64,000 nt of DNA from positions 399,001-463,000 of the forward strand of contig NZ_JAOWPT010000001.1 of the NCBI RefSeq assembly GCF_025753855.1. Reading direction: 5' to 3'. The notes below the pieces were generated by a model, which was not told where the DNA came from, did not search any database, and was given only the letters and a program-made list of their open reading frames with translations. The stretch is from Mesorhizobium sp. ZC-5 (lineage in GTDB: Bacteria > Pseudomonadota > Alphaproteobacteria > Rhizobiales > Rhizobiaceae). Positions 1 to 14,662 of the stretch are shown in pieces (the first letter of the stretch is position 1; each line of letters starts with the position of its first letter). The translations under genes and the position numbers were made by a program.

Positions 1-2
1 GC

Positions 3-2198
3 ATGCGTATGGCCTTCGGCGGAGCGGGCTTGGCTTCCGCGCTCGTCGGCATCTGGCTCGTGGCTGCTTGCTCGTCGGCAATGTGGGTCTGGCAGCGCAC
101 CAAGGGGCAGCAGCGCCTTGCTCCGAAAGACATACTCATCCTAGCGGCCGTGACCGCGATCCTTCCTCCACTTGGCTTGTTGATCCTGCAAATAGCTCCA
201 AGTGGCGAAGTGTTCGGCCAGCTTCTTGCGTTGATCATCCCGACAAATTTCGTCGGTGTGCTCGTTCTCGGATTTCTCATTATCAACGACCAGCAACGCC
301 GATGGGCGATGTCGGCCTACTCCGAAAGCCAAGCGCAGTTACAGGCGATCACCAACAATGCGCCCGGCGTCCTCTTTCAGCTCTCTATCGGGTCGGATGG
401 GATCGGGCGCTTTTCTTACGTATCCGGAGGAGCAGAGCGCGTCCTTGGCGTAACGGCCGAGGACATCGTCGGCAAGCCCGGCACCATCTCGCGCATGATT
501 TCGCGCGAGGCGCTAGCCGAGGTCGAGCACCAGCTCAAGCTGTCGGCAGAGACCCGCCAAGCCTGGTCGATCGAGGCGGAATTCACCAAGCCTGACGGCG
601 AAAAGGTCTGGATGCGCGCCGCAGCGGAGCCGCGCTTCGATATTCGTGGCGAATTGGTGTGGGACGGCTCGCTCTTCGACATAACGGAGCGGAAACGCAG
701 CGAGCAGATGAAGAACGATTTCATCTCGACGGTTAGCCATGAACTCAGGACACCGCTTACCTCGATCCGCGGCTCGCTGGGACTGGTCGCCGCAGGAGCA
801 GCCGGCGAGATTCCGTCCAAGGTTGCCGGACTGATCAATATCGCCCATTCCAACAGCGAACGTCTGGTCCGGCTCATCAACGACATTCTCGACATCGAAA
901 AGATCGAATCCGGGCGCATGCCGTTCGATCCCCGACCGATGGCTCTTCGGCCGCTCATCGAGCAGGCGATCGAAAGCAGCAGCAACTATCTCGCGGACCA
1001 AAACGTCTCAGTCGTCCTCGATGACCAGGCGCCCGGTGCATTGGCTGTGGTTGATCCCGATCGGCTGCACCAGGTGACGCTCAACCTGTTGTCTAATGCG
1101 ATCAAATACTCGCCGCAGGGCGGTCGCGTAACAGTTCGCCTCGTCCGCCTCGAAGATATGGTCCGCTTGTCAGTGATCGATCAAGGCCCCGGCATTCCCC
1201 ATGCTTTCCAGTCGAGGATTTTTGGCAAATTCGAACAAGCGGACTCGTCCGATTCGAGACAAAAAGGTGGAACTGGTCTAGGCCTAAGCATCGTGAAGGC
1301 TATTGTTGACCGGTTGGGCGGAATCGTCTCCTTCGATACCGGGCCGGAGATCGGAACATCTTTCCATGTAGATATTCCGGAAACCAGCGACCGTCGTTCG
1401 AGGCCGCGGGATGCGGTTTTGGGAGATGACGGAACAGCGGCACGACGCGTGCTGATCGTGGAGGATGAACGAGACATCGCAGATATCATCGCGCTTGCGC
1501 TCGTGGAGGACGGACTCCAAGGCGACATCGCGCCCGACGTCGAAACGGCCAAGGAAATGCTGGCCCGCAATCGATATGTCGCGATGACGCTGGATATCAA
1601 ACTCGCAAGCCAGTCCGGCCTTACGCTCTACGAATACCTGCGCAAAACCCCCCATGGCCTGGATTTGCCCGTCATCGTCATCTCCGCCTTCATCGACGAG
1701 GCCCGTAAGTCCTTGAACGGATCGGCGCTCGGCATTGTCGATTGGCTGGAAAAACCGATCGACATGAACCGGCTGCGTGCCGCGATCGAAAAAGTCAGGG
1801 ATGGAGCTTTCAAGCGCATGCCCACAGTGCTCCATGTCGAGGACGACGAGGACGTGCTGAAGGTTATATCGGCGGGGCTCGGCGATGACATTGCAATCAC
1901 ATTCGCACGCAATGTGCAGCAGGCGCGCTTCGAGCTCCAGCAGAAGCATTTCGACCTGGTCATACTGGATCTGACCTTGCCAGACGGATCGGGAGCGGAC
2001 CTGTTGAGGACGATCCCGAGTGAAACTGCGGTTGTCATATTTTCGGCATCTGAGGTCGACGAGCATCTGGCCGCGACTGTGGCAGCAGCAATGACGAAAA
2101 CCAAGACGTCCGAGATCGCGATCGCCGAACTCGTTCGAAGGCTGACTTCATCACAGGCTGGCAACAAGTTCGCTGCCGCGCCGGAAACGAGGAGATAG
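3..2198 (+). CDS. Hybrid sensor histidine kinase with two receiver domains (5' partial)
   Basis: Membrane sensor kinase that should autophosphorylate on His and pass phosphate to its own receivers and then to partners. The visible part has about three hydrophobic segments (residues 5-110), which resemble the end of a multi-TM sensor module, then a PAS domain (about 112-230), a HisKA domain with the H box STVSHELRTPLTS (about 245), a HATPase domain with N, G1 and G2 boxes (NLLSNAIKYS, DQGPGIP, GGTGLGLSI), and two receivers (about 480-600 and 610-715) with candidate acceptor Asp in TLDIKL and ILDLTLPDG. The reading frame is open to the left edge and the first TM segments look incomplete, so the true start is probably outside the window. 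It is four bases from the next gene and heads the polysaccharide operon. Confidence 0.9.
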   Translation: MRMAFGGAGLASALVGIWLVAACSSAMWVWQRTKGQQRLAPKDILILAAVTAILPPLGLLILQIAPSGEVFGQLLALIIPTNFVGVLVLGFLIINDQQRRWAMSAYSESQAQLQAITNNAPGVLFQLSIGSDGIGRFSYVSGGAERVLGVTAEDIVGKPGTISRMISREALAEVEHQLKLSAETRQAWSIEAEFTKPDGEKVWMRAAAEPRFDIRGELVWDGSLFDITERKRSEQMKNDFISTVSHELRTPLTSIRGSLGLVAAGAAGEIPSKVAGLINIAHSNSERLVRLINDILDIEKIESGRMPFDPRPMALRPLIEQAIESSSNYLADQNVSVVLDDQAPGALAVVDPDRLHQVTLNLLSNAIKYSPQGGRVTVRLVRLEDMVRLSVIDQGPGIPHAFQSRIFGKFEQADSSDSRQKGGTGLGLSIVKAIVDRLGGIVSFDTGPEIGTSFHVDIPETSDRRSRPRDAVLGDDGTAARRVLIVEDERDIADIIALALVEDGLQGDIAPDVETAKEMLARNRYVAMTLDIKLASQSGLTLYEYLRKTPHGLDLPVIVISAFIDEARKSLNGSALGIVDWLEKPIDMNRLRAAIEKVRDGAFKRMPTVLHVEDDEDVLKVISAGLGDDIAITFARNVQQARFELQQKHFDLVILDLTLPDGSGADLLRTIPSETAVVIFSASEVDEHLAATVAAAMTKTKTSEIAIAELVRRLTSSQAGNKFAAAPETRR

Positions 2199-2202
2199 GC
2201 CG

Positions 2203-2586
2203 ATGGAGACATTTCGCGTGCTCTATGTCGACGACGAGGCGGATATACGCGAGGTAGCCGCAATGTCGCTCGCGCTCGACCCGGCGTTGGACGTGCGGAC
2301 CAGCGCGTCCGGCCAGGAGGCGCTTGCCGCCACCGCTGCCTGGGAACCCCATCTCATTCTGCTCGACGTCATGATGCCAGGAATGGACGGCCCCGAAACC
2401 CTCGCGGAATTGAAGGCAGACGAGCAGACGGCAGCGATCCCGGTCCTATTCATCACCGCTAGGACGCAGACATACGAGGTTGAACGCTTCTTGTCGCTCG
2501 GTGCAGTCGGGGTCATTGCCAAACCGTTCGATCCAATGGAACTCGCAGCGCAAGCACGGCGCTATCTCGACGGGCGAACAGTTTGA
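2203..2586 (+). CDS. Single-domain response regulator (receiver only)
   Basis: A 127-residue CheY-like receiver with no output domain. The acidic pair is in YVDDEAD, the phospho-acceptor Asp is in LLDVMMPGMDGPE, and the conserved Thr and Lys are in FITART and AKPFDP. It starts four bases after the kinase stop with a GAGGAG-like ribosome site, so the two are co-translated. It is the natural phosphate acceptor, or intermediate, for the upstream hybrid kinase. Without an output domain it probably acts by protein contact or as a shuttle to the HPt protein at the far end of the locus. Confidence 0.9.
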   Translation: METFRVLYVDDEADIREVAAMSLALDPALDVRTSASGQEALAATAAWEPHLILLDVMMPGMDGPETLAELKADEQTAAIPVLFITARTQTYEVERFLSLGAVGVIAKPFDPMELAAQARRYLDGRTV

Positions 2587-2601
2587 TCAGCGAGAGGCGA
2601 G

Positions 2602-4269
2602 ATGGACTGGAGATCTGGGTTGCCGATCCTCTTCGCGTTCATCGCGATGACGCCGGGCCATGCCGCCAACCTATCGGCTGAAGCGCCCAGCGAGATGAAA
2701 AACGGCGAGCCATCCGTGGTTTGGAGCCGATCGGTCGCGATGCAAGCGCCTTCCCCGTCCCGCATCACTATTGAAGGCACCGACATCGATGGCCGTTTCG
2801 TGCCGCAAGCTGTCAACACCCCCGATGACGATCCGAAAAGAACCAAGAAAACGCCACTGCCGCTTGGCGAGGATCTACTCGGCCGGTTCGATGCGCGGTC
2901 TTTCGGCAGTGAGGAGCGCGTTGAGGCAGAGCGGTTGGATGATGGCCTGATCATTCGCTGCGGCGAAGGAACTGCACCGGCCGGCGTCGTCCTCGAAGCC
3001 GACACCTTGCATTTTCCACGCGCGGCGCAGTTGAAGCTCGTTGTGACGGGCCTGGGCTCAGGCGAGCCGTTTGGGCTATCGATTGTTGAGCGCGGCGAGG
3101 ATGCGCCTTCGGCGGCGCAGTCCCCGATCGGTATCGCGGGTGTCAGCCTGCAACTTTCTCCGAACTCCGCTGATGATCTGCCGTCCCGGGACGTTGTAAT
3201 CAATTGCCCGCCCGGACAGGGCAGCTTCCGGCTGAATGCCATCAGCCTGGAACCCGACAGGTCACTCAGCTCGGTTTCACATACCGGGACGTGGCTCTGG
3301 AATGCTGAGACCTGGCTCACGCGGCCCTGGCTGATCGAAAAATGGGCCGTGACTTCGCGGCTCGACCGCGTCTTCCTGCAGTTGCGGATCGACAATGGAG
3401 AGTTGGCGGACGGACGCGCCCTCGCGGACTTCATAGCCCATTTGGGCAGGCGGGGGATTTCGGTCCATGCCGTCGAAGGCGATCCGGCAATGATAGTCGG
3501 TGACGGGCTCGACAATGCGCTTCGGCGCGTCGCAGCGATCCGCCGCTACCAAACAGCAAACCGGCCGGATGCCCGCCTCGCCGGCCTACAATTCGACATC
3601 GAGCCGTATCTTCTGGCCGATTTCGCACTCGATCCCACGGCCGTCTGGAGCCAATGGGCAGCGGCGATCCAGTCGCTCTCCGCGGCATGGGGGCAACCGG
3701 TGTCCATCGTTGTCCCATTCTGGATGCTGGATTCGGAGGCCGGAAGATCGGCGATAGACTCGGCACGCTTTGCCGTTTCCGATCTCACGGTCATGGCATA
3801 CCGCACGGAAACCGGCGAAGTAACTGCACTGAGCGAGCCATGGCTCGCCTGGGGAGCACTCCACGATCTGCCGATCAGGATAGCGCTCGAAAACGGCCCT
3901 CTCGGCGTCGAGGTACATCGGACCTTTTTGCGCGCGGAGACGGGGCATCTCCAACTGACCACGGAAAACAGGATAGCCACCGTTTCGCTGCTCTCAGAAC
4001 CGGCGCGGGCACACCAAGGCGCATTGGCATACGCATTTCATCATGAAACGCGTGTCAATCCGGCGCGAATCAGCTTTATGAACAATCGGGATAAACTAGC
4101 GGTTGCGCGGGCCGAACTTGCGCGTTTACTTGTCGCGTGGCCATCCTTCGATGGTCTTATGATTCACGCGCTGGATGAAGCGGATGGCGGTCTTGGGGGC
4201 CCGCACATTCCGATGCCGGAGACCAGAGCCAATGAGCCCCAAGCATCGGATCCTGATCTGCGACGATGA
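2602..4269 (+). CDS. Secreted GH18-like TIM-barrel protein, putative polysaccharide-acting enzyme
   Basis: A 555-residue protein with a short N-terminal signal peptide (hydrophobic run to about residue 21, cleavage near GHAAN). The N-terminal half has no motif I can name. The C-terminal half (about 235-540) reads as a TIM barrel of the GH18-like type: LAGLQFDIEPYLL (about 326-338) resembles the strand-4 DxxDxDxE-like segment with Asp and Glu next to Pro, and LTVMAYRTE (about 394-402) resembles the later Met-x-Tyr strand. A role in cutting or deacetylation-linked processing of the exported glycan, as PgaB and similar partners do in other synthase-dependent systems, is inferred from context. 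The last 38 bases overlap the next gene. The substrate is unknown. Confidence 0.7.
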   Translation: MDWRSGLPILFAFIAMTPGHAANLSAEAPSEMKNGEPSVVWSRSVAMQAPSPSRITIEGTDIDGRFVPQAVNTPDDDPKRTKKTPLPLGEDLLGRFDARSFGSEERVEAERLDDGLIIRCGEGTAPAGVVLEADTLHFPRAAQLKLVVTGLGSGEPFGLSIVERGEDAPSAAQSPIGIAGVSLQLSPNSADDLPSRDVVINCPPGQGSFRLNAISLEPDRSLSSVSHTGTWLWNAETWLTRPWLIEKWAVTSRLDRVFLQLRIDNGELADGRALADFIAHLGRRGISVHAVEGDPAMIVGDGLDNALRRVAAIRRYQTANRPDARLAGLQFDIEPYLLADFALDPTAVWSQWAAAIQSLSAAWGQPVSIVVPFWMLDSEAGRSAIDSARFAVSDLTVMAYRTETGEVTALSEPWLAWGALHDLPIRIALENGPLGVEVHRTFLRAETGHLQLTTENRIATVSLLSEPARAHQGALAYAFHHETRVNPARISFMNNRDKLAVARAELARLLVAWPSFDGLMIHALDEADGGLGGPHIPMPETRANEPQASDPDLRR

Positions 4270-4624
4270 CCCGTTGCTGATCGAACTGATGAGTTTTCGC
4301 CTCAAGGCGAAAGGATTCGACGTGATCACCGCCACGGATGGCGAGGAAGCGCTTGCAAAGCTCGCAAGCGAGCAGCCCTCGCTGATCGTGCTCGACGCAA
4401 TGATGCCCCGCCTTGACGGGTTCGAAGTGCTCTCGCGGATGAAGAGCGATGGAGCGGTGTCGCACATCCCTGTCATCATGCTGACCGCGCGCAAGGGTGA
4501 AAAGGACATCGTGTCGGCACTGGAGCGTGGTGCGGATGATTATCTCGTCAAGCCGTTCATTCCCGAGGAACTGCTTGCGCGCCTCTCCAAGCTTCTCGCG
4601 CGGCTGGCCCCAAGGCATCAATGA
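4232..4624 (+). CDS. Single-domain response regulator (receiver only)
   Basis: A 130-residue CheY-like receiver. The acidic pair is in ICDDDP, the acceptor Asp is in VLDAMMPRLDGFE, and the Thr and Lys are in MLTARKG and LVKPFIPEE. I chose the ATG at 4232 because it gives MSPKHRILICDDD, a normal receiver start; the frame is open further upstream inside the preceding gene. It overlaps that gene by 38 bases and shares an ATGA junction with the next. It is the second stand-alone receiver in this operon, which suggests a branched phosphorelay or allosteric control of the synthase machinery. Confidence 0.88.
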   Translation: MSPKHRILICDDDPLLIELMSFRLKAKGFDVITATDGEEALAKLASEQPSLIVLDAMMPRLDGFEVLSRMKSDGAVSHIPVIMLTARKGEKDIVSALERGADDYLVKPFIPEELLARLSKLLARLAPRHQ

Positions 4625-6381
4625 AGCCGCGTCGCGCCTTGCTCCTGATTCTGCTGAGCGGTCTGCTTGCTGTCGCTGGTGGAGAAAGAGCCGGCGCCCA
4701 GACGGTTGACGAGCTGTATCGCGAAGGGGTGGCTGCTCGCATGGAACAGCGCTTCAAGGAGGCGGTTTCCTTACTCGATCGCGCCAAGACGCTCGCCCCC
4801 GACAATGCGGACGTATTGGTGCAACTCGGCTTCACCCAACTGGCTCTTGCAAATAATACCGCTGCACGCGAGGCGTTCGAACAAGCACTAGCGATTGCGC
4901 CTTCTTATGAAGACGCCCGGTTCGGACTGGCGCAGATTGCATTCAGGAGCAGCGATTTCGTTGAAGCGCGCAGGCTGGCTGCGGCTGTGGTCGGCGCGCA
5001 GCCTGATCATGCCGAAGCGAAGCAACTGCTGACCTCGATCGAAGCAGCGGAAAAGGCCGACCAGGCGGAACCACCGCCGGCCGCGCGCGCTGGTCCGACA
5101 AGCCAGCCCGCCAAGCGGGCCAAGCCCGGGCCAAGCCGGCTGGAGACCACGCTTCAGCGAGCACGGAAACTGCGCGAGGAAGGCCGCTTTGCCGAGGCCG
5201 AGACGTTATATCGCGAGGCGCTGGCGCTGTCGCCCGGCAATGCCGACGTCCTGGTCGCGCTCGGTTTGGTCGCGGGATTTCAGCAGGATTTCGACGAGGC
5301 TGAAAGATTTTTTCAGGCGGCGCTTGAAAAGGCGCCAGACTATCTGGACGCCCGCCTGGGGCTTGCTCGCGTGGCACTGTGGCATGGCGACCTGGCCGGT
5401 GCCCGGACACTTGTCAGCGCCGTGACGGCGAAATACCCCGATAACACCGAGGCCCGGCTGCTCGCAGCCCGCATCAGCCTGCAGGAAGGTGAGACTCGGG
5501 CGGCCGAGGCGCAGTTCCAGGCCATACTGAAGCGCGAACCAGACAACAGCGAGGCGCTGGTCGGCCTCGGCGACGCACAGCGTGCACGGGGCGACGACCG
5601 TGCCGCCCGGACCAGCTACGGCAAGGCGCTGGCGCTCGAACCCGCCTCCGTGGATATCCAGCAGCGCCTGGCCCAACCGCCGCCCAAGAAATGGCGGACC
5701 GACATCGGCACCGAACTGAGCCACCTCTCCGGAGGCAGGCAGTCATGGACGGACAGTTCGGTTGGCCTTGCCTATACCCCGCAGCCGGGCACCACCATTG
5801 GAGGTCGCACGCGGGTAGTGACGCGATATGGCGAAACGGACGTGCAGATCGAGGCACGGATCGATCATGCGTTCTCGCAGGATTTCTCCGCCTACGGTAT
5901 TGTGGCTGGCACCCCCGACGCCGATTTCCTGGCGCGCTTTTCCGTCGGCGGCGGAGCGACCTGGCGCGCCTACGCACCGGCTGGCGCGTGGGGACCGCTG
6001 GTTTTGACACTGGATGGGCGGCACGACATCTTCGCTGATACGTCGGTGAGTACAGTCTCTCCGGCAGCTCAGTTCTTCTTCTTTGACCAAAAGCTCGGTC
6101 TGCAGGTCCGATGGATCCACTCGTTCAACGATGAGGGCACAACGGCCAACGGCTATGTCCTTCGCGCCGACCTGGCGGCGACCGATAGGTTTCGCATTCT
6201 TGCCGGCTACAGCGACGCTCCTGAAATCTCCGAAGGCACACTTGTCGACACTAAAACCGTGTTCACAGGATTTTCCTACGACCTGTCAGACGCGCTGACC
6301 CTGCGGGGCAATTATGCCTATGAACACCGGGAGGCTTTCGACAGGAACACTTTCGGCCTCGGCCTCTCGGTTCGGTTCTGA
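4621..6381 (+). CDS. TPR-repeat protein with C-terminal YaiO-type outer-membrane beta-barrel
   Basis: A 586-residue exported protein. Residues 1-26 form a signal peptide ending in AGAQ. Two blocks of tetratricopeptide repeats (about 28-145 and 175-345) are joined by a Pro/Ala/Lys-rich linker. The C-terminal part (about 355-586) is a beta-barrel with alternating aromatic strands and a terminal Phe (LSVRF), the usual signal for outer-membrane assembly, and resembles the YaiO family. TPR plus barrel is the layout of glycan export porins such as AlgK/AlgE, PgaA and BcsC. With the adjacent GT2 synthase and hydrolase-like protein, this is the likely outer-membrane exit of the polysaccharide. It is joined by ATGA to the upstream receiver and followed one base later by the next gene. 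Confidence 0.85.
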   Translation: MKPRRALLLILLSGLLAVAGGERAGAQTVDELYREGVAARMEQRFKEAVSLLDRAKTLAPDNADVLVQLGFTQLALANNTAAREAFEQALAIAPSYEDARFGLAQIAFRSSDFVEARRLAAAVVGAQPDHAEAKQLLTSIEAAEKADQAEPPPAARAGPTSQPAKRAKPGPSRLETTLQRARKLREEGRFAEAETLYREALALSPGNADVLVALGLVAGFQQDFDEAERFFQAALEKAPDYLDARLGLARVALWHGDLAGARTLVSAVTAKYPDNTEARLLAARISLQEGETRAAEAQFQAILKREPDNSEALVGLGDAQRARGDDRAARTSYGKALALEPASVDIQQRLAQPPPKKWRTDIGTELSHLSGGRQSWTDSSVGLAYTPQPGTTIGGRTRVVTRYGETDVQIEARIDHAFSQDFSAYGIVAGTPDADFLARFSVGGGATWRAYAPAGAWGPLVLTLDGRHDIFADTSVSTVSPAAQFFFFDQKLGLQVRWIHSFNDEGTTANGYVLRADLAATDRFRILAGYSDAPEISEGTLVDTKTVFTGFSYDLSDALTLRGNYAYEHREAFDRNTFGLGLSVRF

Positions 6382-6382
6382 C

Positions 6383-7420
6383 ATGCTTGTCTACATATGG
6401 ACGTTGTCGATTGTCATTGGGCTGATCGCGCTGGTGATCATGGCGGTCCTGGTCGTCCTCAGGGTCTTTCATGAGCGACGCCACGCGCGCGACGAAATCC
6501 TGCGTCGGAAGCTGATGACCTCCCTAATCCGCTTCAGCGAGGACGGCGAACGGCAAACGCTGATGCCGGTACTCAAGGAAATACCCGCTGCAATCGTGGC
6601 TGATTCCGGTTTCGAATTCCTGTCGCTGCTGCGTGGGGGCGAGCGCCGGAGAATCGAGGAAGCCTTCGCGGAAACCAGCCTACCCGATTTCGTCCGAAAG
6701 CGGCTTCGCAAGGGCAATGAAGCCGAACGAATCCATAGCGCTGAAATCCTGACTGCGTTTCCGGGAGCCGCCAGCGTTGACGCTTTGCTCGAAGCGCTCG
6801 GCGACAACTCGCGGGAACTGCGCATCGCCGCCGCGATTTCGCTCAATGCGCTTGGAGCGCTTCCTCCGTTGCAGACGGTGCTTGAGCGCATAGGCCCGAA
6901 GGGGCTGCGCTCCCATCGTCTGATCGATCTCTTCGAAAGCCTCCCCGCTGAGCGGGGCAACGAACTCCTGGCCAACGCGTTGAAGGCGGATGGCGCCCCC
7001 TTTGTCAGAGCGGCCGCCGTCGAGGCGCTCTCGCTCTCGGAGGACTACCGCTTTCTGGTGGCATTGGAAGATCTGGCCCGTGATCCATCGCCGGAAGTGG
7101 CTGCGGCCGCCCTTCGCGCGTTAGGTCGCTCCGGCCATCCGGGAGCGTCGGGAACGGTGCTTGCGGCACTGGGAAGCGCGGATTGGGAGGTGCGCAGGGA
7201 GGCAGCGGAGGCTTCCGGCCGCATTGGCATCGTTGAAGCGGTGGAGCCACTGACTTCGTTGCTGGGAGATGGCGAGTGGGCGGTCCGCTATGCGGCGGGC
7301 AAGTCCCTCAGGGAAATCGGACCGGCCGGGATGGAAGCGCTGCAGCGAGCGGCAACGGAGGAGTCGTCGCGCAGCCAGCGCACGGCCTCGCTCATCCTGT
7401 CGGAAGGGTTGGCCGCATGA
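6383..7420 (+). CDS. Membrane-anchored HEAT-repeat protein
   Basis: A 345-residue protein with one N-terminal membrane helix (residues 2-30), followed by a basic stretch and then helical repeats of the HEAT/PBS type (about 110-340), for example units like DWEVRREAAEASGRIG and DGEWAVRYAAGKSLREIG. The repeats would lie in the cytoplasm if the helix is a signal anchor, making a scaffold next to the glycosyltransferase or the receivers. The start at 6383 is the first ATG after the previous stop; a longer reading would overlap the barrel end. It shares ATGA with the glycosyltransferase gene, so the products are probably made in equal amounts. It carries no catalytic motif. Confidence 0.85.
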   Translation: MLVYIWTLSIVIGLIALVIMAVLVVLRVFHERRHARDEILRRKLMTSLIRFSEDGERQTLMPVLKEIPAAIVADSGFEFLSLLRGGERRRIEEAFAETSLPDFVRKRLRKGNEAERIHSAEILTAFPGAASVDALLEALGDNSRELRIAAAISLNALGALPPLQTVLERIGPKGLRSHRLIDLFESLPAERGNELLANALKADGAPFVRAAAVEALSLSEDYRFLVALEDLARDPSPEVAAAALRALGRSGHPGASGTVLAALGSADWEVRREAAEASGRIGIVEAVEPLTSLLGDGEWAVRYAAGKSLREIGPAGMEALQRAATEESSRSQRTASLILSEGLAA

Positions 7421-8841
7421 ATGGCGGCTGGCATCAGGTGCTGCTCCATACGTCAGGCATAGTTGCCTGGATCGTCATCATCTTTGGGCTTATCCAGACC
7501 TTCGTATACCTCCTGCAGCTCGTGATTGCGGCCTACGCGCTCTCCCGGCGACCGCCCGTGGCGCGGTCGAGCTTGTTGTGGCACCGCTACGGCGACATCG
7601 CGCCTCCCATTTCGCTGATCGTCCCCGCCTATAACGAGCAGATGAACATCGTCGAGAGCGTCCATTCCATGCTGGCGCTCGAATATCCCGCCTACGAGGT
7701 CATCGTCGTAAATGACGGGTCCAAGGACGAGACGCTGCAACGGCTGATCGATGCCTTCGAACTCGTATCCTTCCGGCGGTCCTTCGAGGAGACGATCAAG
7801 CATGAACCGATCAGGGGAATCTATGCTTCGCCGCGGTCCGACAGACTGTTTGTCGTCGACAAATTCAACGGCGGCAAGGCCGATGCCCAGAATGCCGGCA
7901 TCAACGTTTGCCGCGCGCCGATCTTTTGCGTTATCGACGGCGATTCGATCCTCGAGCCGGACGCTCTGCTGCGGGCGGTGCAGCCATTCATCGAGGATCC
8001 GGAGCGGGTGATCGCCGTTGGAGGCACCATTCGCATCGCCAACAACTCGACCATAGAAGGCGGGCGGGTGAAGACCGTTCGGCTGCCCACGCGAGTTCTG
8101 CCGCTCTTCCAGGTGGCCGAATATCTTCGCGCGTTTCTGATGGCCCGTCTCGCTTGGAGCCAGGTCAACACGCTCATGCTGGTCTCGGGCGCGTTCGGCG
8201 TCTTCCGACGACGGGAGGCGGTGGCCGTCGGCGGCTTCACCAAGGGCTCCATGGGCGAGGATCTCGACTTCGTCATCAAGCTCCATCGCTACATGCTCGA
8301 CAAGAAGAAGGAATACCGGATCGAGTTCATCCCGGAGCCGGTCTGCTGGACCGAGGCACCCGAGACACTGGCTGTGCTTGCCAGACAGCGCTCGCGCTGG
8401 CAACGCGGGGCACTGGAAGTGTTCTTCCGTTATCGCAGCATGCTGTTCAATCCGCGCTACGGCCGTGTCGGCTTTCTCGGGTTTGGGCATATGCTGATCG
8501 TCGACGTGCTAGGCCCGATCATGGAGGTGTTCGGCTACATCCTCATGCCGCTCTTCTGGTTGATGGGTGTGCTTTCGACCGAACACCTCCTTGCTTATAC
8601 GGCACTGGTTTTCGTCTACGGCGTTTTCGTGAGCGTCGCCTCATTGATCCTGGAGGAGTTGGAGCTAAAACGTTTTCCGCGCCCCCGCGACCTCGCGATC
8701 CTGACGCTGGCCGCGGTTGCCGAGAATTTCGGCTATCGGCAGATCAACAATTTTTGGCGCATCAAGGGATATTGGCAGTATCTGCGCGCCGACAATAGTT
8801 GGGGCGAAATGACCCGAACGGGCTTTTCGAAGCAAGGCTGA
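7417..8841 (+). CDS. Family 2 processive glycosyltransferase (polysaccharide synthase)
   Basis: A 474-residue inner-membrane glycosyltransferase of the GT2 family, the class of cellulose, PNAG and hyaluronan synthases. One N-terminal TM helix (about 12-40) precedes the GT-A domain. Landmarks are IVPAYNE, the nucleotide-binding VVNDGSKDE, the metal-binding DGDS, the acceptor-base GEDLDF and the processivity motif RQRSRWQRG (QxxRW). Several C-terminal TM helices (about 360-440) could form the export channel. The start at 7417 is set by the ATGA overlap with the HEAT gene. There is no PilZ domain, so c-di-GMP control is not evident; control through the operon's receivers is more likely. The sugar polymerised cannot be told from sequence. 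Confidence 0.92.
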   Translation: MNGGWHQVLLHTSGIVAWIVIIFGLIQTFVYLLQLVIAAYALSRRPPVARSSLLWHRYGDIAPPISLIVPAYNEQMNIVESVHSMLALEYPAYEVIVVNDGSKDETLQRLIDAFELVSFRRSFEETIKHEPIRGIYASPRSDRLFVVDKFNGGKADAQNAGINVCRAPIFCVIDGDSILEPDALLRAVQPFIEDPERVIAVGGTIRIANNSTIEGGRVKTVRLPTRVLPLFQVAEYLRAFLMARLAWSQVNTLMLVSGAFGVFRRREAVAVGGFTKGSMGEDLDFVIKLHRYMLDKKKEYRIEFIPEPVCWTEAPETLAVLARQRSRWQRGALEVFFRYRSMLFNPRYGRVGFLGFGHMLIVDVLGPIMEVFGYILMPLFWLMGVLSTEHLLAYTALVFVYGVFVSVASLILEELELKRFPRPRDLAILTLAAVAENFGYRQINNFWRIKGYWQYLRADNSWGEMTRTGFSKQG

Positions 8842-8844
8842 CGA

Positions 8845-9144
8845 TCAGCCGGACGAAGCGGAAACCTGTCCCAATATCTGGATCAATTCATCCAACGCCG
8901 CGATAGCCTGATTGTCGCCTTCTCCCTCGATTATCAGCGCCTCGAGTGCAAATGCCTTGTTACTTATTTCAGGGAATCCGAATATTCCGCCTGCGCCGGC
9001 CAGTGAGTGTGCAATCTTGGTCAACGCCACCGATGCATCCGGATTGTCGAAGCCAGCCGACTTGAGTTCCTCCAAGCTGTGAAGGTCACTGCGGCACCTC
9101 TCTATGAAGCGGTTGCGGATATCAGTAAAAGGGTCGGAGGTCAC
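8845..9144 (-). CDS. HPt-domain phosphotransfer protein
   Basis: A 99-residue protein made of a single HPt domain. The phosphorylatable His is in AHSLAGAGGIFGF (about residue 48), the signature of this fold. The start codon is GTG. It lies on the opposite strand and ends three bases from the glycosyltransferase stop. A hybrid kinase with internal receivers needs an HPt to relay phosphate to separate receivers, and this is the only one in the locus, so it probably completes the His-Asp-His-Asp relay. Because it has its own promoter, its level could be set independently. Confidence 0.88.
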   Translation of the reverse strand: MTSDPFTDIRNRFIERCRSDLHSLEELKSAGFDNPDASVALTKIAHSLAGAGGIFGFPEISNKAFALEALIIEGEGDNQAIAALDELIQILGQVSASSG

Positions 9145-9324
9145 AGCCGCACCCTGACGATGGAGTCATCACTTCACAAGCATGCAAGCAGTTCGCTTAA
9201 GGGTCAATGCCCATCCTAGAGCACATCCGGGTATCGATGAATCGATTGTGATGTGACGCGATAGGTGGCTTCTGATTCAACGTCCGCTTTGGCGGAGGTG
9301 GACGATGGAGCTTAACTTCGAGAA

Positions 9325-9340
9325 GAGGGCATGAGCCCTC
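9325..9340 (-). terminator. Short hairpin after the terC operon
   Basis: GAGGGC and GCCCTC form a six-pair stem with a four-base loop, 13 bases beyond the stop of the small membrane gene, followed on the minus strand by TTCTC. The T tract is weak, so this is only a possible terminator. Confidence 0.4.
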
Positions 9341-9352
9341 CCCCGGCTTGTC

Positions 9353-9514
9353 TCACTTGATCGCCCGCCTGAGATCCGTCGAAACAGGCTTAGCCTCTGG
9401 TCTCTGTCGTCCAGTCTTCTCCATGGCAGCGACTTTCACCCAGACAAAGATTGCCGCCGCGACGAGGAGGATGAAGTTGATCCAGACCCACCCTGGAATA
9501 ACGAAGGTATTCAT
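9353..9514 (-). CDS. 53-residue single-pass membrane protein, TerC partner candidate
   Basis: A small reading frame of 53 codons on the minus strand. It starts with ATG two bases after the terC stop, with GGAAGC-like bases inside the terC end as a ribosome site. The product begins MNTFVIPGWVWINFILLVAA, has one TM helix (about 8-30) and a basic Lys/Arg-rich tail ending DLRRAIK. The two-base spacing, a plausible start and a clean hydrophobic helix argue that it is real and co-translated with terC. I know no family name for it. A regulatory subunit or small membrane partner of the transporter is an inference. Confidence 0.72.
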   Translation of the reverse strand: MNTFVIPGWVWINFILLVAAAIFVWVKVAAMEKTGRQRPEAKPVSTDLRRAIK

Positions 9515-9516
9515 GG

Positions 9517-10221
9517 TCAGGCTTCCTGTTCTTGGGTTTTATGTCTGGCGGCGCGACGGCTGAGGAAATAGCCGAGCACCACTACGAAGACCGCGCCTAT
9601 CGCAGCGGCGGGGAGTTCGATGCGATGGATGAACTCTTCGCCAAGGGTGCTGAGCAGCCACGGGTCAGAAACGAGCATCTCGCCTGCGACCCAGCCGAGC
9701 AGCGCGGCACCGGCCCAGACCAGGATCGGTAGACGACCTAGCAGCGCCATGATGATCGCCGAGCCGGCGACGATGAGCGGCACCGAGATGACGAGGCCGA
9801 CAATCAGCAGCGTGGTGGAATCCTTCGCCACGGCGGCGATGGCCAGAACATTGTCGAGGCTCATCACCGCATCGGCGATCGCAACGGTGCGGATCGCGTG
9901 CCAGAGCTGCTCGGTCTGCTGTACCGCGCTGCCGCCTCCTTCCTCGTCCTCACCGAGCACCAGTTTGACGGAGATCCACAGGAGCAGACAGCCGCCAACG
10001 ATCTTCAGGAAAGGCGTCGAGAGCAGCGTGGCGACGACGACTGTGAAGACGATGCGCAGAACGACCGCGACAAAGGCCCCGAGCACCATGCCGGGCCGCT
10101 GCTTGTCCGGCGGCAGGCCGCGGCAGGCCATGGCGATGACGACGGCATTGTCGCCGGAGAGGATGATGTTGATCCAGATGATCTGCACCAGCGCGAGAAG
10201 CTCGGGGCCGAAACTTTCCAT
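9517..10221 (-). CDS. TerC-family integral membrane protein (YjbE-like, putative metal exporter)
   Basis: A 234-residue inner-membrane protein with about seven TM helices. Two family signatures are visible: SGDNAVVIAMA near the N terminus and DAVMSLDNVLAIAAVA in the middle, each with acidic residues inside a helix as expected for metal binding. The acidic loop GEDEEGGGS follows helix 3. TerC relatives such as Alx, MeeF and YkoY act in manganese export or metal loading of secreted proteins. It is the first gene of a two-gene operon with the small membrane protein downstream. I could not identify a yybP-ykoY manganese riboswitch in the leader. Confidence 0.9.
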   Translation of the reverse strand: MESFGPELLALVQIIWINIILSGDNAVVIAMACRGLPPDKQRPGMVLGAFVAVVLRIVFTVVVATLLSTPFLKIVGGCLLLWISVKLVLGEDEEGGGSAVQQTEQLWHAIRTVAIADAVMSLDNVLAIAAVAKDSTTLLIVGLVISVPLIVAGSAIIMALLGRLPILVWAGAALLGWVAGEMLVSDPWLLSTLGEEFIHRIELPAAAIGAVFVVVLGYFLSRRAARHKTQEQEA

Positions 10222-10361
10222 TAAAACTTACTCCGAAGGCGTGCCGCATGAGCGGCATGCGCGATGTCCCGTCTAGCGTGCGGCTCAGATGGCCGCAGGG
10301 TCGTGGGGGTATCGCGGACTAGGCAGCTCGGCGCGCCTTAAGCGCGCTGACCGCCATCGCT

Positions 10362-10724
10362 TCAGAGGGTCGGAGGACCTGTGCAGGAATGCGCCGACGA
10401 GCGAGGAAAGGAGGGACGCCAGGCATCGGTCGCCTGGTACCCGGCATCCTGCGCGCAGTGAAGCGTCGCAAGGGTGAGGAAGATGGCTTCTTCCTGGTCG
10501 TCTTCTTCATCGAAGTCTTCGGCAACGCCGAGCGTGGCGCCGACGAGGGTTGCAGTGTCACTCCACGGATCGGCGGGCGCCGACACATATTCCTGGAATT
10601 CGTCACCGGGTAGTGGCGCGTCGAAGGTCGGCGCAAGAATCGCCAACAGCGCGAACAGCACCGAGAAGGCCTGCACAAGGATGCGATGGAGGCGGGACTG
10701 ACGCAGAATCAACCTCTCCAGCAC
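10362..10724 (-). CDS. Hypothetical secreted or membrane-anchored protein
   Basis: A 120-residue frame starting at GTG, with a basic N terminus and one strong hydrophobic segment (about 17-37), then an acidic middle with EDFDEEDDQEEA. The pattern fits an exported or anchored small protein. No family is recognised and the C-terminal 25 residues look like read-through of non-coding sequence. Other frames in the same stretch are also open, so the call rests mainly on the signal-like helix and on the acidic composition. Confidence 0.35.
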   Translation of the reverse strand: MLERLILRQSRLHRILVQAFSVLFALLAILAPTFDAPLPGDEFQEYVSAPADPWSDTATLVGATLGVAEDFDEEDDQEEAIFLTLATLHCAQDAGYQATDAWRPSFPRSSAHSCTGPPTL

Positions 10725-11162
10725 GTCAATTTCAGCACGTTTTTACATTCGGGGAGGGCTCCCGCCATGTCAAGCACTGAGCCGTGCCGGCGCATGAGGG
10801 TCTCCGGCCACAATGTTCAGGAAAGCACGTCGTCTCCCCCCGCCGTCGCAGGTTTTTCAGGAGAAGAACGAGATAATCGTCGCCAAAAGCCGATACGCCC
10901 GCGCGATTCAGATGATCCGTATCGTAAAATAGACGTCGTCCGGCAAGATATCGTTGCCGGTGCCGGGACACGACGGGCGTCTGATGCTGATCCCGTGCGA
11001 CTTTGGTTCGAAAGCGTGCTGAGTGCCGCGAAACAGACGGACTGACAGCCCCGCGGGCCCTCCCAACATTCCAGGCTAAATTGTGAAAGCTGGCAAATCG
11101 GTCGCAGGTAGCCGAACTGCATACCGCATTGCACAATGAATGGTATCCGCGCACAGTAAGCC
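10725..11162. other. Intergenic stretch without a convincing gene
   Basis: About 440 bases upstream of nasT. Frames are open on both strands but none has a good start, composition or recognisable domain. The last 70 bases hold the probable nasT promoter region. Confidence 0.6.
11091..11106 (+). promoter_or_regulatory. Weak sigma-54-like promoter upstream of nasT
   Basis: TGGCAAATCGGTCGCA has the required GG-N10-GC spacing (GG 11092-11093, GC 11104-11105) and matches most of the TGGCAC-N5-TTGCA consensus. It lies 57 bases before the nasT start. Nitrogen control of nasTS would make sense, but the match is imperfect. Confidence 0.35.
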
Positions 11163-11777
11163 ATGGTCGCCGCGTCCCTTTCCATCCTGGTCATTGACGA
11201 GAACCGCATTCGGGCCGCGGTGATCGAGGCCGGCCTCAGGGATGCGGGGCACGAACGCGTCATGCTGATTCATGACGTCACGGGGATCGCCGCACGCATC
11301 GCCGAACTCGAACCCGATGTCATCGTCATCGATCTGGAGAATCCGAACCGCGACATGCTGGAGAACATGTTCCAGCTGTCGAGAACGGTGAAACGGCCGA
11401 TTGCCATGTTCGTCGACCGCTCGGACCGGGCATCCATCGAGGCGGCCGTGGAGGCGGGCGTGTCTGCCTACGTTGTCGATGGACTGAGGCAGGAGCGAGT
11501 GAAACCGATCCTCGACATGGCGGTCAGCCGCTTCAACGCGTTTTCACGCATGGCCCGCGAACTCGAAGAGGCGCGCGGCGAACTGCAGAGCCGCAAGCAG
11601 GTCGACAGGGCAAAGCGCATCCTGATGCAGTCGCGCGGCCTGTCCGAGGAGGCAGCATATGCGCTGCTCAGGAAGACCGCGATGAACCAGAACCGCAAGA
11701 TCAGCGAAATAGCCGACAGCCTGATCACGGCCGCCGGCCTGCTCGGGCCGCAGGAAGGGACTGACGATGGCGCCTGA
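11163..11777 (+). CDS. nasT: NasT-type ANTAR antiterminator response regulator
   Basis: A 204-residue regulator with an N-terminal receiver (about 5-120; acceptor region VIVIDLENPN) and a C-terminal ANTAR RNA-binding domain (about 140-198; QVDRAKRILMQSRGLSEEAA). NasT binds a two-hairpin leader RNA and stops premature termination upstream of nitrate assimilation genes. It is held inactive by NasS when nitrate and nitrite are absent. Its last 11 bases overlap nasS, the usual pairing. A fitting target hairpin and terminator lie just upstream of the nitrate transporter at 13183-13300. Confidence 0.93.
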   Translation: MVAASLSILVIDENRIRAAVIEAGLRDAGHERVMLIHDVTGIAARIAELEPDVIVIDLENPNRDMLENMFQLSRTVKRPIAMFVDRSDRASIEAAVEAGVSAYVVDGLRQERVKPILDMAVSRFNAFSRMARELEEARGELQSRKQVDRAKRILMQSRGLSEEAAYALLRKTAMNQNRKISEIADSLITAAGLLGPQEGTDDGA

Positions 11778-13005
11778 ACACCACGTCAACGCGGCCTTTC
11801 TGCCGCTCTTCGACAGCGCGGTGCTGGTCGCAGCCAGGGAAATCGGGTTTGCGGAGCGCGAGGGCGTGGAGTTGACCCTTCATTGCGAAACGTCGTGGGC
11901 GAACATTCGCGATCGAATCGCGATTGGCCATTTCGACGTGGCGCATATGCTGGGGCCGATGCCGATTGCCGGCAATCTCGGCCTGACACCGCTCTCATCG
12001 GAGACGATCGTGCCGTTTGCGCTGGGGCTGGGCGGCAATTGCGTGACCGTCTCCAATGCCGTGTGGGCTGGAATGGCAGCGCATGGCGCGAAGCCGGATC
12101 TCGACCCAGCGGGAGCGGGCGCAGCACTCGGGCGCCTCATCCGCGAGCGGCAAGGGTCGGGGCTCGAGCCGCTCCGCTTCGCCGTCACCCACCCGCATTC
12201 GGGACACAAATACGAATTGAGCTACTGGCTGGCGGCCTGCGGTATTGATCCGCAGCGCGATATCGATATCGTCGTCGTGCCCCCACCCTTCATGGCGGAT
12301 GCACTGGCCGCGGGCCGGATCGACGGCTATTGCGCCGGCGAACCTTGGAACAGCGCGTCGGTAGTGCGCGGCACCGGGCATATCGCCACTGTCAAGGCAG
12401 CGATCTGGAAGAACAGCCCGGAGAAGGTGTTGGGCGTGCGCAAGGCCTGGGCCGAGCAGAACGCCGATGCGCTGTCCGCCCTGCTGCGGGCGATGCATCT
12501 GTCGGCGCGCTGGTGCCAGGATGCGGGCAATCGCCCGGAACTCGCGAAGCTGATGGCGAGGCCCGAGTTCCTTGGCCTGCCGCCGGACATGCAGATGCCC
12601 ATCCTGAGCGGAGAACTGAACGTCGGTGGTGGAGTGCTGCGTCGAGTAGAAGATTTCTTCCTCCCCTTCGACAAGGCAGCAAACTTCCCGTGGAAGAGCC
12701 ACGCGCTGTGGTTCTACACGCAGATGGTCCGCTGGGGACAGGTCGCGCATTCGCCCGCAAACGCAGCCATCGCGCGCGACTGCTACCGGCCCGATCTCTA
12801 CCGCGCTGCGCTGAAGCCGCTGGGCGTCGCCTTGCCGGGGGCGAATGCGAAGGTTGAGGGCGCGCTCGGAACGGCTACGCCCGTCGGTTCCGCTGGTGCC
12901 AGCCTGGTGCTTGGACCGGACGGTTTCTTCGACGGCGAGATGTTCGATCCGGACCGGATCGCCGACTATCTCGAGCGTCAATCCACCTCCTTGGCGGCTG
13001 ACTGA
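11767..13005 (+). CDS. nasS: NasS-type nitrate sensor (NrtA/CmpA-like binding protein, cytoplasmic)
   Basis: A 412-residue protein of the nitrate/bicarbonate-binding family (NrtA, CmpA) that lacks a signal peptide, as expected for the cytoplasmic sensor NasS rather than a transporter subunit. Family segments include FDVAHMLGPMPIAGN, TVSNAVW, HPHSGHKYELSYWLAACG and GYCAGEPWNS. NasS binds nitrate or nitrite and then releases NasT. The gene overlaps nasT by 11 bases. The transporter here is an MFS protein and not an ABC system, which also argues against a transport role. Confidence 0.92.
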   Translation: MAPEHHVNAAFLPLFDSAVLVAAREIGFAEREGVELTLHCETSWANIRDRIAIGHFDVAHMLGPMPIAGNLGLTPLSSETIVPFALGLGGNCVTVSNAVWAGMAAHGAKPDLDPAGAGAALGRLIRERQGSGLEPLRFAVTHPHSGHKYELSYWLAACGIDPQRDIDIVVVPPPFMADALAAGRIDGYCAGEPWNSASVVRGTGHIATVKAAIWKNSPEKVLGVRKAWAEQNADALSALLRAMHLSARWCQDAGNRPELAKLMARPEFLGLPPDMQMPILSGELNVGGGVLRRVEDFFLPFDKAANFPWKSHALWFYTQMVRWGQVAHSPANAAIARDCYRPDLYRAALKPLGVALPGANAKVEGALGTATPVGSAGASLVLGPDGFFDGEMFDPDRIADYLERQSTSLAAD

Positions 13006-13027
13006 ATCACAGGCAATTTTGCCGCAC

Positions 13028-13044
13028 TGCACAATTTCTGTGCG
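13028..13044 (+). promoter_or_regulatory. NtrC-like binding site
   Basis: TGCACAATTTCTGTGCG contains the inverted repeat GCAC-N7-GTGC, the core of the NtrC consensus. It sits about 125 bases before the sigma-54-like promoter, a normal enhancer distance. Confidence 0.6.
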
Positions 13045-13154
13045 TCGGCACGCGGCGTATGACTATGATTTCACCTGAGCCGCGTGACGACGCGAACAGG
13101 GGCAATCAGACCATATCGTTGATTTCATTGATTTTTCTTCGGCTCTAAGCAAAC

Positions 13155-13170
13155 TGGCACGGTTCCTGCT
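13155..13170 (+). promoter_or_regulatory. Sigma-54-type promoter of the nitrate assimilation operon
   Basis: TGGCACGGTTCCTGCT matches the sigma-54 consensus TGGCACG-N4-TTGCW in all but one conserved base, with GG-N10-GC spacing (GG 13156-13157, GC 13168-13169). The predicted start near 13180-13182 falls just before the first leader hairpin. Confidence 0.75.
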
Positions 13171-13182
13171 TGGTTGTTTACA

Positions 13183-13221
13183 GGTCGAGAGACCACGAAA
13201 TGGCGTCCAACGATGGGCGCC
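13183..13221 (+). ncRNA. ANTAR-type two-hairpin leader RNA (NasT target)
   Basis: Hairpin 2 is clear: GGCGTCC (13202-13208) pairs with GGGCGCC (13215-13221) around the six-base loop AACGAT, which has A in position 1 and G in position 4, the hallmark of ANTAR target loops. Upstream at 13183-13194, GGTCGAGAGACC can fold as a small stem and serve as hairpin 1, although its loop does not show A1 (four-base GAGA loop, or six-base CGAGAG). NasT binding here should prevent the terminator immediately downstream from forming. Confidence 0.72.
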
Positions 13222-13230
13222 CCCAAGGCA

Positions 13231-13300
13231 AAGCCGCCACTCAGGTTGACGCGATTCCCGATGAACGGGGCGCGTGATCTGGCTGGTGGCTTTTTTGTTT
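13231..13300 (+). terminator. Leader terminator controlled by NasT
   Basis: AAGCCGCCA (13231-13239) pairs with TGGTGGCTT (13284-13292), allowing one G-U pair, with further pairing inside the loop (CCCG with CGGG, GCG with CGC). It is followed by T6-G-T3. Its place between the ANTAR hairpin and the transporter start is what transcription antitermination requires. Confidence 0.72.
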
Positions 13301-13348
13301 TGACGATCTACGAAGCGCGGCGCTCCCGGCCGCTCAACGGAGCCGACC

Positions 13349-14647
13349 ATGACCACACCACTTCCAGTCAGCAGCCCTGACGACGCATCGTCCCGCGCGT
13401 TGGCGATGTCCACCATCGCCTTCACCGTATGTTTTGCCGTGTGGACGATCTTCTCGATCATCGGCGTCCGCATCAAGGAGGAACTCGGCCTCAGCGAGAC
13501 GCAGTTCGGCCTGCTCGTCGGCACACCGATCCTGACCGGCTCGCTTGTCCGCATCCTGCTGGGCATCTGGACCGACCGGTTTGGTGGCAGGCTCGTCTAC
13601 ACCGCTACCATGCTGGCCGCAGCCGCCTCGACTTTCCTGCTGGCCTTCGCCCACACCTACACGCAGATGCTGGTGGCCGCGCTCGGCGTCGGCTTGGCTG
13701 GGGGTTCCTTCGCAGTCGGCGTCGCCTATGTCTCGCGTTTCTACCCCACGGAAAAACAAGGCACCGCGCTCGGCATCTTCGGCGTCGGCAATGTCGGGGC
13801 GGCGGTCACCAAATTCGCCGCGCCATTCGTGCTGCTGGCCTGGGGCTGGCAGAACGTCGCCGTGATCTGGGCATGCGTGCTTACCTTCATGGCTCTTATC
13901 TTCTGGTTCGGCACTGAGGACGATCCGGTGATCCGCGAACGCCGGGCCGGGCGCGGTGCTCCGAAGAATTTCTGGCAGGAGTTCGCGCCGCTGAAGAATC
14001 TCCAGGTCTGGCGCTTCGGCCTCTACTACTTCTTCGTCTTCGGCGGCTTCGTTGCGCTGGCGCTGTGGCTGCCCCGCTACCTGATCGGCGTCTACGGGTT
14101 CGACATCGCCACCGCCGGCATGATCGGCGCGGCCTATTCGATCCCGGCCTCGATCTTCCGGGCTTATGGCGGCGTACTGTCTGACCGCCTCGGCGCGCGC
14201 GCCGTGCTCTACTGGACCTTCGTCGTGTCGGCCGTATGTTGCGCCGTTCTGGCGCTGCCGGCGACCGATTATGCCGTGCGCGGCATCAACGGCCCGATCA
14301 CTTTTCACTTCGAAATCGGCTGGCTGGCTTTTATCGCCATCGCCTTCGTGCTGGGCTTCTTCATGGCGATCGGCAAAGCCGCCGTCTACAAGCACATCCC
14401 CGTCTACTATCCCGACAGTGTCGGCGCCGTCGGCGGCCTCGTCGGCATGATCGGCGGCCTCGGCGGCTTCGTGCTGCCGATCGCGTTCGGCGCGCTGAAC
14501 GACCTGACGGGTGTCTGGTCAAGCTGCTTCATGTTGCTCTTCCTGGTCGTGGCGGCCTGCCTCGCCTGGATGCATGCGGCAATTCTGCGGATGAACCGCG
14601 ACGCAGCTACGGCGCGTACGCCGTCGCTCGTGGCGGCGGCCGAGTGA
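13349..14647 (+). CDS. Nitrate/nitrite MFS transporter (NarK/NasA type)
   Basis: A 432-residue major-facilitator protein with about twelve TM helices, which brings nitrate (and possibly nitrite) into the cytoplasm. Family features include GTPILTGSLVRILLG, the loop IWTDRFGGR after helix 2, and the Gly-rich nitrate signature helices around GIFGVGNVGAAVT and GAVGGLVGMIGGLGGF. It is the first structural gene after the NasT-controlled leader and is 15 bases from nirB. Co-transcription with nirBD and the reductase points to assimilation rather than respiration. Confidence 0.93.
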   Translation: MTTPLPVSSPDDASSRALAMSTIAFTVCFAVWTIFSIIGVRIKEELGLSETQFGLLVGTPILTGSLVRILLGIWTDRFGGRLVYTATMLAAAASTFLLAFAHTYTQMLVAALGVGLAGGSFAVGVAYVSRFYPTEKQGTALGIFGVGNVGAAVTKFAAPFVLLAWGWQNVAVIWACVLTFMALIFWFGTEDDPVIRERRAGRGAPKNFWQEFAPLKNLQVWRFGLYYFFVFGGFVALALWLPRYLIGVYGFDIATAGMIGAAYSIPASIFRAYGGVLSDRLGARAVLYWTFVVSAVCCAVLALPATDYAVRGINGPITFHFEIGWLAFIAIAFVLGFFMAIGKAAVYKHIPVYYPDSVGAVGGLVGMIGGLGGFVLPIAFGALNDLTGVWSSCFMLLFLVVAACLAWMHAAILRMNRDAATARTPSLVAAAE

Positions 14648-14662
14648 ACTGAGGAACACGAC

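Follow-up and report, generated by a model that had tools for sequence, protein, structure and literature searches.

The 64,000-nucleotide stretch analysed in this study (the window) comes from contig NZ_JAOWPT010000001.1 of Mesorhizobium sp. ZC-5 (positions 399,001 to 463,000 of the forward strand). At its left end lies a compact block of eight genes, in which the components of a phosphorelay stand beside those of a putative machinery for polysaccharide synthesis and export. The genes are listed below, with coordinates given in the window.

1..2198 (the part within the window), + strand: hybrid histidine kinase with PAS, HisKA, HATPase and two receiver (REC) domains (Pfam)
2203..2586, + strand: lone receiver REC1 (PF00072, 8.8e-25)
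2602..4269, + strand: secreted hydrolase-like protein with the motif LQFDIEPY, an optional part (signal peptide recognized by eye)
4232..4624, + strand: lone receiver REC2 (PF00072, 1.2e-30)
4621..6381, + strand: TPR protein (Pfam models) with a YaiO-type outer-membrane barrel (TIGR04390, 131.9 bits, cut-off 32)
6383..7420, + strand: HEAT-repeat protein, a single membrane helix at its N-terminus (HEAT_2, 1.1e-39; start chosen by eye)
7417..8841, + strand: processive GT2 synthase (Pfam GT2 matches), with an insertion typical of its clade between D1 and DxD
8845..9144, − strand: HPt phosphotransfer protein (PF01627, 4e-9), convergent with the GT2 gene

The original prediction, made from the letters alone, had placed an eight-part block at 3..9144. 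Pfam and NCBIfam analyses confirmed that all eight parts are present, mostly with overlapping or tight ends. The kinase gene stops at 2198, immediately before the start of REC1 (2203); REC2 starts before the hydrolase-like gene has ended and shares positions 4621-4624 with the barrel gene; the barrel gene stops at 6381 and is followed by the HEAT start codon at 6383; the HEAT and GT2 genes overlap by ATGA (7417-7420); and the end of the HPt gene (8845) faces that of the GT2 gene (8841). The kinase, which had been taken to begin at position 3, had to be extended: its start lies some 290 bp upstream of the window edge (full gene L018:8712-11195), and its N-terminal part, outside the window, is a 5TM-5TMR_LYT (LytS-type) sensor (Pfam, full gene). 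The open reading frames of REC2 and GT2 open at 4175 and 7276, respectively, and their likely starts (4232 and 7417) were chosen by eye. The Asp/Lys/acid phospho-site pocket is intact in both REC1 and REC2, and the HPt histidine lies within HSLAGA (by eye). As judged from these domains and sites, the block contains every part of a multistep phosphorelay, from the hybrid kinase through the HPt to receivers bearing phospho-sites. No known RNA scored above the Rfam gathering thresholds in window positions 1-12000, and a promoter and terminator scan gave signals at or below shuffle level.

The full gene order (kinase-REC1-hydrolase-REC2-barrel-HEAT-GT2 with convergent HPt) was found by profile searches in M. 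alhagi (L003), in Rhizobiales AFS059704 (L005), on a Devosia plasmid (L024, the same as L004) and in two loci of one genus (L021 and L022). Two loci of one genus (L019 and L020) have the same gene order with the kinase located elsewhere, which gives seven other loci in all. The HPt gene occupies the same place in these seven and in three loci devoid of the hydrolase gene; everything except that gene is present in M. ciceri plasmid pMESCI01 (L025), L080 and L081. Protein-level similarity to ten related loci was confined to the region between about −327 and 9165, i.e. from kinase to HPt (E ≤ 1e-15). This comparison took reading frames of the own genome lying between 9 kb ahead of the window and its first 20 kb, and a few kb of flank from each relative, the range over which the ends are sharp. 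The co-conservation of the block in other genomes supports the earlier reading of one system: the eight genes form one co-conserved polysaccharide cassette. A shorter arrangement, hydrolase-barrel-HEAT-GT2 without regulators, occurs in Bartonella apihabitans (L008). In the record of the Devosia sp. A8/3-2 plasmid (L004/L024) the frames of four genes (kinase, barrel, HEAT and GT2) are interrupted, which reflects either decay or sequencing error.

The search across genomes also revealed a unit that the original prediction had missed: judged by gene neighbourhood, the widely shared core is REC2-HEAT-GT2, found in bacteria and archaea. Searches with the GT2 sequence separated a sharply defined group, with five of 240 genomes matching at E ≤ 1e-130 in the class sample (next match, 2.2e-39) and 13 of 398 at E ≤ 1e-120 in the phylum sample (one at 5.1e-55, the others at 3e-43 or worse), own genome counted in both. 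There were also matches in 18 plasmid records, 16 of which were taken into the analysis (two further M. ciceri plasmids, H8 and H9, are not among the loci analysed), and in nine phage records (at most 40% over a portion of the query). The resulting subfamily comprises 38 loci: 28 obtained with GT2 queries (hydrolase queries also led to three of these: L024, L027 and L043), nine obtained via the hydrolase-like gene only, and the window. For comparison, 20 loci with GT2s outside the subfamily were used. Kept outside the counts were L006 (a contig of a Bartonella metagenome-assembled genome that ends inside GT2, with HEAT upstream there too), L009, L010 and L012 (no GT2 in the stretch), and L002 (where the own genome has another, weak match to GT2).

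One fixed rule was used to score the neighbourhoods: HEAT no more than 300 bp upstream of GT2, a same-strand lone receiver within 6.5 kb upstream and TPR/barrel within 4.5 kb upstream. HEAT lay directly upstream of GT2 in 37 of the 38 subfamily loci (the single miss, L040, is a contig ending at GT2) and in 0/20 outside loci, where a HEAT protein could escape a profile trained on subfamily loci; a Pfam check of 10 same-strand neighbours from eight of these 20 loci detected no HEAT. A lone receiver was present upstream in 26/38 versus 0/20 loci, and TPR/barrel in 27/38 versus 0/20, with TPR/barrel downstream instead in L028 and L085. For the GT2-query loci alone (n = 28) the rule gave 27 with HEAT and 18 with a receiver, an annotated response regulator in L073 being a possible 19th. 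HEAT_2 exceeded its Pfam cut-off (27.7 bits) in seven of nine divergent HEAT neighbours, the proteins of Emticicia (25 bits) and L090 (20.3) falling below it. Receiver, HEAT and GT2 genes follow one another in a row in haloarchaea. In Erythrobacter aureus (plasmid, L026) the receiver-TPR/YaiO-HEAT-GT2 unit lies within a flagellar gene cluster.

A maximum-likelihood tree was built from 59 rows (the Devosia GT2 was excluded because of its broken frame). In it, the 37 HEAT-linked GT2s formed one side of a branch with support 100/99, recovered in all 200 bootstrap trees, with the exact placement of the long Legionella and L091 branches unsure according to a program warning. Members of this clade come from Pseudomonadota and, through plasmid records, from Bacteroidota, Bacillota, Deinococcota and haloarchaea. 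Its mark is a stretch of about 24 additional residues between D1 (the D of DGS) and DxD: the spacing is 73-77 residues in 37/37 subfamily GT2s, compared with 50-64 in the 20 outside GT2s and 51 in both PgaC and YaiP of E. coli. A weak consensus, P.R..Y.S, can be read in these additional residues, ahead of DKENGGKADA. With a spacing of 74 and a HEAT gene directly upstream, the window GT2 belongs to the clade by its definition. GT2 families are diverse, which is why an enzyme making a short glycan or modifying a lipid, and not producing a secreted polymer, has to be considered here; given the presence of the processive motifs (D, DxD, ED and QxxRW) and the frequency of TPR/barrel genes beside these synthases, we regard this as very improbable. 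The GT2 of L091 (G383:C48) lacks DxD and QxxRW in the alignment, has HEAT still beside it and adjoins a lipoyl synthase gene; it may be an inactive synthase that has been retained along with HEAT.

Gene anatomy supports the earlier claim that the block provides for both synthesis and outer-membrane export. Apart from the window, 13 of 16 proteins in the exporter position exceeded the YaiO cut-off: four of six in a first set (Massilia, Erythrobacter, Legionella and Emticicia, the Bacteroides protein being below the cut-off and that of Deinococcus having TPR only) and nine of ten in a second, where L091 has lipoyl synthase at that position. No barrel was detected by profile in three archaeal and two Bacillota loci, as expected because these lack an outer membrane. 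As for the polymer, a sugar nucleotidyltransferase and glmS directly follow the haloarchaeal GT2 of Halosolutus (L073:7441-10415), a hint of an N-acetylglucosamine polymer, and the Legionella GT2 is flanked by a nucleotide-sugar dehydrogenase and epimerases, a hint of uronic acid; the two hints conflict.

The hydrolase-like protein matched no Pfam or NCBIfam family, and none of 10 aligned sequences hit a Pfam glycoside hydrolase family, even at E values as high as 1. Its GH18-like label is therefore unsupported: no GH18 model matched, and a PDB search with the single sequence gave no match. The motif QFDIE, of the DxE form expected of a GH18 catalytic site, is present. The profile of the family, however, matches PDB 10yv ('Putative GH97 from Cellulomonas fimi', E 2.9e-8), with QFDIEPY aligned on QLDVEPW. 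All 10 sequences of the alignment, that of the window among them, have W231, W233, D332, E334, W374, Y400, R401 and E430 without exception, which suggests that the protein is an active enzyme. The gene was rejected as a core part: it is rare (5/297 genomes of the order at E ≤ 1e-10 and 2/398 of the phylum at E ≤ 1e-6, own counted in both), it was not detected in the M. ciceri-type loci, and distant relatives on three Bacillota plasmids (L106, L107 and L108) lie in stretches where no HEAT or GT2 is annotated. One of these relatives is annotated 'amidase'; the putative family is wider than the HEAT-GT2 system. The gene is nearby in five of the 28 GT2-query loci (L024, L027, L040, L043 and L085).

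A single hydrophobic N-terminal segment was identified in 34 of 37 HEAT frames, the others (L024, with its broken frame, L073 and L090) having no clear one. The C-terminal flank of the segment is net-positive in 33 of the 34 and more positive than the N-terminal flank in 30; because of this positive C-flank (positive-inside rule) the HEAT solenoid is predicted to be cytosolic, alongside the GT2 catalytic domain and the receivers. The most conserved part of the protein is its last repeats, with the pattern L.D..W.VR..A..AL (35 sequences).

The lone receiver that immediately precedes the TPR/HEAT/GT2 genes scored higher against REC2 than against REC1 in every locus having one, archaea included (e.g. 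105 versus 69.7 bits in Salinirubellus and 130 versus 70.5 in Erythrobacter), whereas lone receivers beside a kinase and HPt in L041, L082 and L083 are REC1-like (103 versus 53.9 bits in favour of REC1 for the receiver at L082 +2965). The split in these scores indicates that REC2 is the synthase's receiver and REC1 that of the relay; REC1, HPt and the kinase look like an added relay. The neighbouring kinase of Erythrobacter has a receiver and a fused HPt (Pfam), and therefore fits a kinase to HPt to lone receiver route.

Taken together, these features make it somewhat more probable than not that the block encodes a synthase-dependent polysaccharide synthesis and export cassette whose synthase is gated, via HEAT, by a phosphorylated receiver and not by PilZ. 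The LytS-type hybrid kinase would phosphorylate its own receivers, and HPt would hand the phosphate to REC1 and REC2. Phosphorylated REC2 would then dock on the cytosolic HEAT solenoid, turning the adjoining GT2 on or off, so that HEAT would take the role played in c-di-GMP (cyclic di-GMP) systems by PgaD or by the PilZ domain of cellulose synthase. The polymer may pass the periplasm along the TPR domain, by analogy with PgaA, whose TPR domain binds polymer and modulates PgaB (accessible part of PMC9384988); the hydrolase-like protein could trim or free it, and the YaiO barrel would export it. The REC2-HEAT contact, the polymer and the signal are the parts of this scheme that we infer.

Several observations weigh against receiver gating. 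In L072 the HEAT charge after the segment is negative, and in L031, L074 and L086 the charges leave the side undecided. The phospho-Asp is lost in the core receivers of Emticicia (L028, D to N) and G344 (L084, D to E), and other pocket changes occur in those of G358 (L088) and G569 (L090). Moreover, by the fixed rule a lone receiver is missing from 11 of the 37 subfamily loci that could be tested (10 if L073 is allowed), and HEAT-GT2 can therefore work without one. The receivers could act on something else: the same polysaccharide machine may be present, with the receivers and HPt directed at other targets, such as motility or a transcription factor, and HEAT being no more than a structural subunit of the synthase. 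This would explain why HEAT is found in every testable locus and the receiver in only 26/38, with no adjoining receiver in the Bartonella, Bacteroides, Planococcus, Paenibacillus, Deinococcus and Legionella stretches. We nevertheless consider it unlikely, as the same receiver type adjoins HEAT-GT2 from haloarchaea to Rhizobiales and Pfam finds no DNA-binding output domain among the eight genes. The receivers of L028 and L084, devoid of the phospho-acceptor Asp, remain beside HEAT-GT2.

The block resembles several known systems without coinciding with any of them. With PgaABCD, which makes poly-N-acetylglucosamine in E. coli, it shares a TPR and barrel exporter, a periplasmic hydrolase-type protein, a processive GT2 (31% identity with PgaC across some 300 residues) and a small inner-membrane partner. 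However, the window GT2 scores 154.4 bits with the PgaC/IcaA equivalog TIGR03937 (cut-off 422.3) and differs from PgaC in its D1-DxD spacing (74 versus 51); the barrel protein, of YaiO type, scores 88.8 bits with PgaA model TIGR03939 (cut-off 366.65), best in its TPR part; HEAT stands in the place of PgaD; and receivers adjoin the block, unlike in Pga. A PgaB-like identity of the hydrolase was rejected (hhalign probability against E. coli PgaB, 0.6%), which leaves the block with no PgaB-like protein. Cellulose synthase BcsA/BcsC also combines a processive GT2 with a TPR-type exporter, but Pfam finds no PilZ on the window GT2, and the BcsC model gave 58.5 bits (cut-off 858). YaiO-YaiP of E. coli K-12 places a YaiO-family barrel near a GT2; YaiP, with a D1-DxD spacing of 51, falls outside the clade, no HEAT or receiver is annotated in the E. 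coli stretch, and BLASTP gave no significant match between the window YaiO protein and that of E. coli. NfrB-NfrA-YbcH of E. coli, as described in the accessible part of PMC8669469, unites a GT2 carrying DxD/TED/QxxRW, a TPR and outer-membrane pore partner, and a dedicated local regulator; the MshEN domain fused to that GT2 is absent here (Pfam: only glycosyltransferase/chitin synthase models), and the regulators here are receivers. In Caulobacter, HmrABCX (accessible part of PMC11481889) uses a hybrid kinase and HPts to control a surface adhesin, the holdfast, but is reported to act via c-di-GMP synthesis (DgcB), and that part of the source describes no HEAT-GT2 synthase.

The likeness to PgaC raises the question of a c-di-GMP-controlled synthase of the Pga/Nfr kind, in which c-di-GMP would bind GT2/HEAT directly and the kinase would be a side input. 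PgaC and PgaD respond to c-di-GMP without PilZ, and the genome has 23 GGDEF matches, which also speak against a purely receiver-based control. On the other hand, neither these nor the two PilZ matches of the genome lie near the block (the sole GGDEF on the same contig is more than 300 kb off), and we know of no use of c-di-GMP in haloarchaea, which have the same core. We consider such control quite improbable. The earlier preference for a phosphorelay over c-di-GMP is thus consistent with the block itself, and with 23 GGDEF matches in the genome it stops short of proof. Because the GT2 is devoid of PilZ and no GGDEF or PilZ match is near the block, control by the receivers appears to be the simplest reading.

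Beyond the block, positions 9517-10221 of the window encode a YjbE-family TerC protein (TIGR03717, R_switched_YjbE), with no Rfam match above the gathering score in 1-12000. The region 11163-17113 contains an ANTAR response regulator followed by likely nitrate-assimilation genes, recognized by eye (NrtA-like binding protein, MFS transporter, NirB-like reductase; the domain scan covered the ANTAR protein).

The HEAT-GT2 pair with its receiver, rather than the eight-gene set, is the part that deserves attention. Among the listed titles and abstract openings of open-access papers (20 of 65 in one search), none describes HEAT-GT2-receiver loci. 'HEAT repeat' refers to beta-catenin in the accessible part of PMC12419801 and to XopN in that of PMC3826837, and a word search of the accessible part of PMC7112194 returned no mention of HEAT, YaiO, receiver or response regulator. 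A bolder proposal, which we advance tentatively and with more doubt than conviction, is that of a new, domain-spanning class of synthases, in which an insertion-bearing GT2 would be obligately paired with a membrane-tethered HEAT protein serving as a docking platform for a CheY-like receiver, phosphorylation gating synthesis directly, with neither transcription nor c-di-GMP involved, in bacteria and archaea alike.

In most of the known synthase-dependent systems whose mode of activation has been settled, c-di-GMP is the switch. If receiver gating is true, the receiver-HEAT-GT2 core would represent a second, phosphorylation-based switch of polymer synthesis acting at the enzyme. A HEAT family and lone receivers that have so far been annotated by domain alone would thereby gain a function.

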